DNA from: Arenibacter amylolyticus
Lineage (GTDB): Bacteria; Bacteroidota; Bacteroidia; Flavobacteriales; Flavobacteriaceae
Assembly (NCBI RefSeq): GCF_002150785.1
Contig: NZ_MTAZ01000031.1
Span: 1-45,516, forward strand
Length of the DNA stretch: 45,516 nt
Direction of reading: 5' to 3'
The position numbers and the translations under genes are program-made. The notes beneath the pieces were generated by a model that had not been told where the DNA came from, did not search any database, and was given only the letters and a program-made list of their open reading frames with translations. Below are positions 14,489-45,516 of the stretch, in pieces (the first letter of the stretch is position 1; the number at the start of each line of letters is the position of its first letter).

Positions 14489-14561
14489 CACCCGCTTTGG
14501 AAGAACCAAGCGAAAAAAGAATTAATAATCAGGGGTCGGGCACCCTACAAATTAATGTGAT

Positions 14562-44212: not shown

Positions 44213-45154
44213 CTACATCAAGAATTTAGAGCTTATGGAGGTGTTATGATGTACCCTATGCATAACATCTGCAAACAATTCTGCACAACTAATCACCCTT
44301 ATTTTTTTACTTTCTTTTCGCAAAGGTATGGAGTCTGTAACAATCAGCTCGGACAATTGCGAATTTTCTATTCTTTCATAGGCCTTCCCAGAAAGCAATG
44401 CATGGGTTGTAATAGCCCTTACACTTGCTGCTCCTCGTTCCATCATTAGATCTGCCGCAGTGGTCAGGGTCCCAGCAGTATCTACCATATCATCGGCCAA
44501 TACCACATTCTTACCTTTTACATCCCCAATCAGCTCCATATGTGAAATAACATTGGCTCCACCTCTTTGCTTGTAACAGATTACCACATCGCAATCTAGC
44601 GCTCTAGAATAGGCATAGGCTCTTTTAGAACCACCCATATCCGGGGAGGCTATCGTAAGATTTGGAAGATTTAAGCTCTCCAGATAGGGCAAAAACAAGG
44701 TGGACGCAAACAAATGGTCTACCGGTTTTTCAAAAAACCCTTGAATCTGATCGGCATGCAGGTCCATCGTAATAATACGTGTGGCCCCAGCAGCTTCCAA
44801 CATATTGGCAATCAACTTAGCGGCTATAGGCACTCTCGGTTTATCCTTCCGATCTTGTCTTGCCCACCCAAAATAGGGAATTACTGCAGTGATATGTCGG
44901 GCAGACGCGCGTTTGGCCGCATCCAACATAAGCAATAGTTCCATTAGATTCTCGGAGCTTGGATTGGTTGAACCGATAATAAAAACCCTTCTACCTCTTA
45001 TAGACTCCTCAAAAGAAGGCTGAAACTCACCATCACTGTATCTGGAAAAAATTACATTCCCCAGCTCTGTTCCAAAAGATTCAGCTATTTTCTCGGACAG
45101 TTTTGCACTTTGTGTACAGGTGAAAATTTTAGGTTCCGGTACTTGATATGACAT
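44213..45154 (-). CDS. prs: Ribose-phosphate pyrophosphokinase
   Basis: The 313-residue product has the class I PRPP synthetase blocks: 'GRRVFIIGSTNP', 'YFGWARQDRKDKPR', 'DLHADQIQGFF' (divalent cation site), and the PRPP-binding loop 'VVLADDMVDTAGTL'. It makes PRPP from ribose-5-phosphate and ATP for nucleotide, His, Trp and NAD synthesis. It is probably co-transcribed with rplY. A TAAATTTG (45206-45213, minus strand) about 52 nt upstream is a possible -7 element. Confidence 0.97.
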   Translation of the reverse strand: MSYQVPEPKIFTCTQSAKLSEKIAESFGTELGNVIFSRYSDGEFQPSFEESIRGRRVFIIGSTNPSSENLMELLLMLDAAKRASARHITAVIPYFGWARQDRKDKPRVPIAAKLIANMLEAAGATRIITMDLHADQIQGFFEKPVDHLFASTLFLPYLESLNLPNLTIASPDMGGSKRAYAYSRALDCDVVICYKQRGGANVISHMELIGDVKGKNVVLADDMVDTAGTLTTAADLMMERGAASVRAITTHALLSGKAYERIENSQLSELIVTDSIPLRKESKKIRVISCAELFADVMHRVHHNTSISSKFLM

Positions 45155-45255: not shown

Positions 45256-45289
45256 TTTGTGGGATTAAACAAAATATTTTCTACTTTTG
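45256..45289 (+). promoter_or_regulatory. Strong plus-strand promoter in front of the tRNA-Leu-like gene
   Basis: TTTG just after the T-run near 45256-45259, a 22-nt spacer and TACTTTTG at 45282-45289, followed by CAGTCGC, fit the consensus used by rRNA/tRNA genes in this phylum. No ORF follows within 120 nt; the next feature is the tRNA-Leu-like sequence at 45417. Confidence 0.6.
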
Positions 45290-45416
45290 CAGTCGCTATC
45301 AAAATTTATGCCCTGCAGCATAGCAAGGAATACATTAAAAGCAGATTGCGAATTAGGAGGTTCAAGAGTTTTACAAAGAACAACTGAGATCCCTTAGAGA
45401 TAAAAATAATTAGTTT

Positions 45417-45516
45417 GCTCGAGTGGCGGAACTGGTAGACCTGTCTGCCGACAGGCAGGCCTGACTGCCGTTAGGCAGGCGCGCTAGGATTGAAATAATG
45501 AATTAAATGGTTTGGG
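45417..45516 (+). tRNA. tRNA-Leu-like gene, 5' part, with a D-loop insertion (runs off window)
   Basis: GCTCGAGTGGCGGAACTGG-TAGAC (45417-45440) matches the acceptor 5' strand, the U8/G9 linker, the D-stem and most of the D-loop of bacterial tRNA-Leu. Normally GCGCTAGG would follow directly; here it appears only at 45481-45488, so exactly 40 nt are inserted in the D-loop (45441-45480). After CTAGG no complementary CCTAG is present in the remaining 28 nt, so the anticodon arm does not close inside the window and the anticodon cannot be read. It could be a functional tRNA with insertions, an intron-containing gene, or a pseudogene. The 3' half is outside the window. Confidence 0.55.
45440..45479. 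repeat. Two tandem 20-nt palindromes in the tRNA D-loop
   Basis: CCTGTCTGCCGACAGGCAGG (45440-45459) is followed immediately by CCTGACTGCCGTTAGGCAGG (45460-45479). Each is an imperfect palindrome and the pair differs at a few positions, some compensatory (GTC/GAC versus a TGAC/GTTA pair), which suggests an element duplicated in place that keeps its hairpin. A degenerate relative is at 5087-5109. Confidence 0.8.

Follow-up and report, generated by a model that had tools for sequence, protein, structure and literature searches.

The interrupted tRNA-Leu copy at the end of the Arenibacter amylolyticus DNA analyzed here (the window, corresponding to the whole of contig C28, 45516 bases) probably represents the left-hand end of a homing-type element that targets a tRNA gene, displaces half of it and leaves a complete tRNA. 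The original prediction did not contain the recurring element of which this half-tRNA forms one end. The unit comprises a promoter, a displaced tRNA 5′ half with one or more hairpins, mostly in the D-loop, an ORF encoding a GIY-YIG protein of ∼80 aa, a short tail and a complete tRNA. In a mirror form, a complete tRNA is followed by a terminator-like hairpin, the GIY-YIG ORF and a displaced 3′ half whose hairpin lies in the anticodon arm, the variable region or the T-loop. The relevant features of the window are as follows.

44213–45154, minus strand: ORF of 313 aa, named by eye ribose-phosphate pyrophosphokinase (prs); all 18 genus genomes have a match to this flank
45282–45294, plus strand: promoter-like TACTTTTGCAGTC; the same motif stands before the tRNA in genus genomes
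45373–45413, plus strand: remnant similar to the 3′ tail of a nuclease unit, scoring 30 in the tail test against a shuffled 95% level of 18
45417–45439, plus strand: displaced tRNA-Leu(CAA) 5′ part, nucleotides 1–23, assigned by identity to the gene on contig C51
45440–45459, plus strand: first palindrome, in the D-loop, CCTGTCTGCCGACAGGCAGG; an identical 20-mer is known from other genera
45460–45479, plus strand: second palindrome, CCTGACTGCCGTTAGGCAGG, in tandem with the first and imperfect as judged by eye
45480–45485, plus strand: CGCGCT, where the tRNA match resumes (nucleotides 24–29); CGCGCTAGG from 45480
45507–45516, plus strand: start of the GIY-YIG ORF, ATG GTT TGG G (M-V-W), truncated by the contig edge; M-V-W also opens the ORF in G003, G004, G011 and G015

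Positions 45417–45439, GCTCGAGTGGCGGAACTGGTAGA, are identical to nucleotides 1–23 of the genome's intact tRNA-Leu(CAA), GGTAGACGCGCT, which lies on contig C51. Comparison with this gene bore out the two tandem 20-nt palindromes originally predicted, which occupy 45440–45479, as well as the insertion of exactly 40 nt, which lies on the 3′ side of the D-loop and leaves both D-stem strands in place. The match to the tRNA stops after CGCGCT, and the contig ends inside the ORF opened by the ATG at 45507. When up to three mismatches were allowed, the 20-mer occurred twice in the window compared with 0.00 expected from 100 shuffles. The tRNA searches suggested in the original prediction yielded no call on the 45417–45485 copy in the window, either by ARAGORN or by Rfam; the suggested count of genes with the same anticodon returned one intact tRNA-Leu(CAA), located at the end of contig C51, among the 37 Rfam tRNA matches of the genome. 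The designation of TACTTTTGCAGTC as promoter-like is based on the Bacteroidetes promoter form, and TTTTGCA(A/G)TC precedes the tRNA in all 17 resolved genomes of the 18 in the genus. Judging from its letters, the remnant at 45373–45413 may be the scar of an earlier unit. Elsewhere in the window, positions 14521–14556 match the S16-Flavobacteria ribosomal protein leader (RF03138). On contig C62 of G000 (L084, 1–50), the sequence opens with a stretch of A and then one of T that together resemble an assembly artefact.

Across the genus, the flank was matched in 18/18 genomes, and a complete tRNA-Leu(CAA) was present at the site in 17/17 relatives. In G003, G004, G011 and G015, whose contigs run on, the displaced 5′ half with its palindrome(s) is followed by the ORF and, ∼10 nt after it, by the complete tRNA-Leu(CAA). 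The tRNA 3′ half that the original prediction expected downstream, and that a functional tRNA-Leu requires to close its acceptor and T stems, is absent after the displaced copy in all four; the window contig ends before this point. G015 contains two tandem units of 321 bp. Five genomes have an empty site (G002, G005, G008, G010 and G014), with the promoter motif 21–27 nt before the tRNA. Another seven (G001, G006, G007, G009, G012, G016 and G017) have a longer spacer without a unit; in six of these, all except G006, a nuclease-tail match exceeds the shuffled 95% level, and by sequence these tails appear scar-like. The empty site of G005 scored 15 in the tail test against a shuffled level of 12. 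In G013, the displaced fragment contains two palindromes, and there is no ORF. The site-state comparison resolved 17 of the 18 genus genomes, and the state of G003 was read directly from its locus. Beyond the genus, the site is empty in G364 and filled in G190, two genomes of the same genus with flanks that are 93% identical. Together with the five empty genus sites, this pair demonstrates that the nuclease gene lies at its target and that element-free alleles exist, as is required for the homing-element class.

The piece missing beyond 45516 in the source strain is most likely the nuclease and the complete tRNA, because a repeated unit would break the assembly at exactly that place. The original prediction had also allowed for an assembly artefact, which is unlikely: the junction of tRNA, palindrome and CGCGC is found in 25 of 397 family genomes and 22 of 237 genera (reversed-pattern control, 0 of 397), and the double palindrome occurs at the same site in G003 and L159 and is therefore not the product of the source assembly alone.

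The ORF of the four relatives encodes a GIY-YIG protein of ∼80 aa. The G015 protein matches PF01541 with an E-value of 1.6e-18, and residues Y5, Y16, V17, G18, R26, H30 and E62 are invariant in eight aligned proteins, so that both the domain and its conserved residues are present. The best matches with solved structures are the UPF0213 proteins 1ywl and 1zg2 (E-values of 1.3e-4 and 7.5e-4), which are both recorded as hypothetical proteins and are likened here by sequence alone. No match to the Leu nuclease was found in the phages and plasmids searched. Nucleases cluster in the tree according to tRNA and side, with 33 changes compared with a least possible 21 and a shuffled mean of 84.3 (0 of 200 shuffles as low); the tree is built on few columns, 61 of its 136 inner branches remain open, and its clustering owes something to near-copies. 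The last codons of the Arg-type ORF are also the first bases of the tRNA, so that this tRNA half is carried along with the nuclease.

A protein search returned 34 loci. A tRNA-Leu follows the ORF in 29 of them, at a distance of 8 to ∼90 nt, including loci from MAGs labelled Chitinophagaceae, Spechtbacteria and Buchananbacteria; one locus has a tRNA-Thr and no fragment. The nuclease is present at 23 of 29 loci found by the junction pattern, and of the six without it, two (the window and L166) reach a contig edge within the ORF. A profile built from tRNA-linked proteins had matches in 67 of 110 genomes, a sample chosen independently of the palindrome pattern; 152 matches came down to 136 units once a 38-bit limit was applied and identical units were removed. 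A tRNA follows 31 of these, 26 of which have a displaced fragment, and precedes another 34, 23 of which have one; the remaining 71 are in neither position. Units scoring at least 75 bits adjoin a tRNA in 27 of 32 cases, and GIY-YIG matches with lower scores are mostly not linked to tRNA. Every genome-scale count is for the named samples, in which each genome represents one species. Testable units carry displaced fragments in 90 of 99 cases in the 5′ class and 23 of 35 in the 3′ class at a cut-off of 22; among 2680 shuffled scores, the 99% level was 19 and the highest value 27. Plain letter shuffles were used in the fragment, hairpin and tail tests. The tRNAs concerned are Leu, Arg, Pro, Ser, Asn, Ala, Met and Asp on the 5′ side, and Met, Val, Arg, Pro, Asn, Asp, Phe and Leu on the 3′ side. 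Tandem arrays reach up to five ORFs (L283), and the ARAGORN names Stop and SeC within arrays probably denote hairpin-bearing fragments. Small GIY-YIG ORFs also occur several hundred nucleotides downstream of a tmRNA gene in L254 and L265.

The displaced halves usually carry a hairpin that the intact gene lacks. A perfect stem of at least 7 bp is found in 52 of 113 displaced fragments, compared with 45 of 1130 letter shuffles, 12 of 113 ORF stretches and 55 of 113 intact tRNAs, and only three of the fragment hairpins are also present in the corresponding intact tRNA. New stems of at least 6 bp occur in 74 of 90 5′-class and 19 of 23 3′-class fragments. For Arg(TCG) only 6 of 13 were counted, since longer hairpins fell outside the loop limit of 14; a leader of this kind folds at z −2.8. 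Of the 27 distinct places to which insertions were mapped, 24 involve a loop or linker base against an expected share of 0.54, and cloverleaf stems survive because of this placement; the binomial value of 1.2e-4 assumes an independence that related units do not have, and of the 113 fragments 2 are without structure and 48 without a mapped insertion. In the Leu units the D-loop pattern fits 38 of 48, a count that, like the others taken from these 48 units, is biased because 24 of them belong to loci chosen through the palindrome pattern; among the remaining ten, judged by eye, the hairpin sits at the same site in six, on the 5′ side of the D-loop in two and only near nucleotides 8–9 in two. Mean identity among 15 protein-found Leu units is 94% for the palindrome, 61% for the ORF DNA, 39% for the next 15 nt and 86% for the first 44 nt of the intact tRNA. 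The 6-bp palindrome stem pairs in 96.7% of cells, with two-sided changes at two pairs in 3 of 60 cells; this register gains over shuffles, whereas an 8-bp register does not. The window leader RNA folds weakly better than shuffles (z −1.5; −1.6 in a second run), and the Leu leader folds gave −1.5, −0.6 and −1.6. Different nuclease clades and hosts have unrelated palindromes. Outside these units, palindromes of the CCTGCC/GGCAGG type are scattered in Arenibacter genomes, often as doublets (L179–L198; motif in 20 of 20, a tRNA in 0 of 20, a GIY-YIG match in one, L197), and by eye a 19-nt palindrome of the same family lies within transposase-like sequence on contig C51 of G000 (L002, 1171–1189). 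Displaced tRNA-Leu 5′ pieces with a palindrome and no nuclease ORF are seen in L152, L164, L173 and L176, two of them at tRNA-Leu(TAG)-like genes; these are possibly non-autonomous or decayed units.

Displaced halves, nucleases, complete tRNAs, empty sites, scars and arrays are read from the DNA; cutting and homing are what we infer. The nuclease would cut its tRNA gene in chromosomes without the element, and repair would copy the cassette into the cut gene. The original half would thereby be pushed aside, and the tRNA is proposed to stay functional because the element supplies a replacement half. Tandem units could arise by repeated cutting or unequal recombination, and loss or scars by recombination between repeats. 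Transcription presumably runs through the unit, with the tRNA freed by normal processing; RNase P acts in tRNA processing. The least certain step concerns the hairpin, which most likely protects the displaced half from re-cutting or from folding with the other half of the tRNA; we favour protection of the displaced copy, and an RNA role is the main rival.

Several observations speak against the homing reading. The complete tRNA holds the uninterrupted sequence and would have to escape cutting. No tRNA lies within the set limits of 71 of the 136 family units, and 16 of 65 tRNA-adjacent units are without a displaced fragment. Displaced halves with palindromes but no nuclease exist (L152, L164, L173, L176 and G013), and the Leu nuclease lacks phage or plasmid matches. 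A foreign replacement half is rarely visible because the first 8 nt of the displaced copy equal those of the intact tRNA in 39 of 48 Leu units, an identity that may reflect recent insertion, conversion or constraint; in G352, it is the intact copy, not the displaced one, that matches the genus relative. The foreign tRNA of G190 was dropped as proof of homing, because the native 3′ half lies next to an attachment-like repeat of the same contig, at a distance of ∼37 kb. There, on contig C23 (L171, L347), an insertion of ∼37 kb splits the native tRNA-Leu(CAA) near the end of the anticodon arm, with a different tRNA-Leu at one end and GGTACAACATAGGTACAAC-like repeats near both ends.

Four other explanations were weighed. 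A tRNA-Leu that has an extended D-loop and either works as it is or is processed as RNA would suit the exact 40-nt insertion, the retained D-stem and the upstream promoter-like motif, but this reading of the copy is almost certainly wrong: the four relatives read through have no 3′ half, ARAGORN and Rfam are silent on the copy, Rfam reports only complete tRNAs and no intron in the scanned relatives, and an intact tRNA-Leu(CAA) exists elsewhere in the genome. Among the three fates offered in the original prediction, a dead gene is supported, and a tRNA gene carrying the D-loop insert is not. A self-splicing intron was rejected, as no intron family reached the gathering score in the window or in the sets of 20 and 18 loci and the complete tRNA lies outside the insert. 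It is also quite improbable that the palindrome serves its nuclease as a recognition or mobility signal, as REP sequences do for their RAYT transposases. The strict conservation of the Leu palindrome and its scattered relatives would agree with such a signal, whereas unrelated palindromes accompany different nuclease clades and hosts, and the 20 scattered copies include none with a tRNA and a single one with a GIY-YIG match.

Those scattered copies, 20 of 20 stretches from genus genomes holding the motif without a tRNA, and two further loose matches in the own genome lend some credit to a dead tRNA piece hit by chance by a common genome palindrome beside an unrelated nuclease gene. This explanation is nevertheless unlikely, given that mostly the same 20-mer occupies the same site in many genera at an identity far above that of the ORF DNA and the next 15 nt, that displaced halves of different tRNAs repeatedly carry new hairpins, and that the nuclease clade tracks the tRNA. 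Somewhat better placed, albeit still rather doubtful, is an RNA device, in which the hairpin-bearing half-tRNA would act in a toxin–antitoxin-like manner as a decoy, antidote or leader controlling the nuclease or its action on the tRNA. The loop and linker placement with surviving cloverleaf stems and the pairing and two-sided changes of the 6-bp stem favour it, as does the statement, in the part of the source drawn on here, that hairpins regulate segB and other T4 homing genes (PMC2988022). However, the Leu leader folds barely beat shuffles, the 8-bp register brings no gain, the mirror class has its displaced half after the nuclease, and such a device would need neither an adjacent complete tRNA nor tandem units.

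We found no paper in the open-access literature on chromosomal bacterial tRNA-linked GIY-YIG elements or on hairpins in displaced tRNA halves. The tRNA-targeted cassette may, as a tentative proposal, belong to an undescribed, widespread class of bacterial chromosomal selfish elements, each lineage being directed at one tRNA gene that it splits from either end and rebuilds, with the hairpin-armoured half-tRNA as an immunity determinant or RNA antidote. A selfish element aimed at a tRNA gene must spare the tRNA, and a replacement half, from either side, appears to solve that problem. Such elements would explain why flavobacteria show half-tRNA pieces, tandem tRNA–nuclease repeats and contig breaks at tRNA genes, and they provide ∼80-aa nucleases, each possibly directed at a single tRNA gene. 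The recurrent placement of hairpins in displaced halves represents a sharp, testable puzzle.

REP sequences and Rickettsia palindromic elements are short palindromes that spread through genomes, also inside genes; in contrast, the palindromes described here have a fixed place in displaced tRNA halves and occur together with a nuclease. As far as the cited parts of the sources extend, the nearest tested case appears to be SegB and the nearest architecture, by analogy, that of the fungal mitochondrial mORFs. SegB, a GIY-YIG enzyme of phages T4 and T6, has cuts that map inside tRNA genes, and tandem tRNA–segB amplification needs nuclease activity and phage recombination genes, according to the portion of PMC13096335 used here. 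Like the units described above, it is a small, free-standing GIY-YIG enzyme beside tRNA genes with tandem tRNA–nuclease units (PMC13096335, PMC2988022); it differs in being phage-borne and, in the same portion of PMC13096335, in being associated with tRNAs without isotype preference, whereas our units are chromosomal, clade-specific for a tRNA and equipped with a hairpin-bearing displaced half, the Leu type having no phage match. In fungal mitochondria, endonuclease ORFs of the mORF type make gene hybrids, for example of atp6 in Allomyces and Glomus, and are flanked by a replaced gene end on one side and the displaced native end on the other (PMC3630166). A complete gene beside a nuclease, with the displaced half kept, is likewise what the 90 5′-class and 23 3′-class fragment-bearing units display. 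The mORF cases covered in that part of PMC3630166 concern protein genes in organelles and the 3′ end only, whereas the units described here affect tRNA genes of bacteria at either end and carry hairpins in the displaced half.
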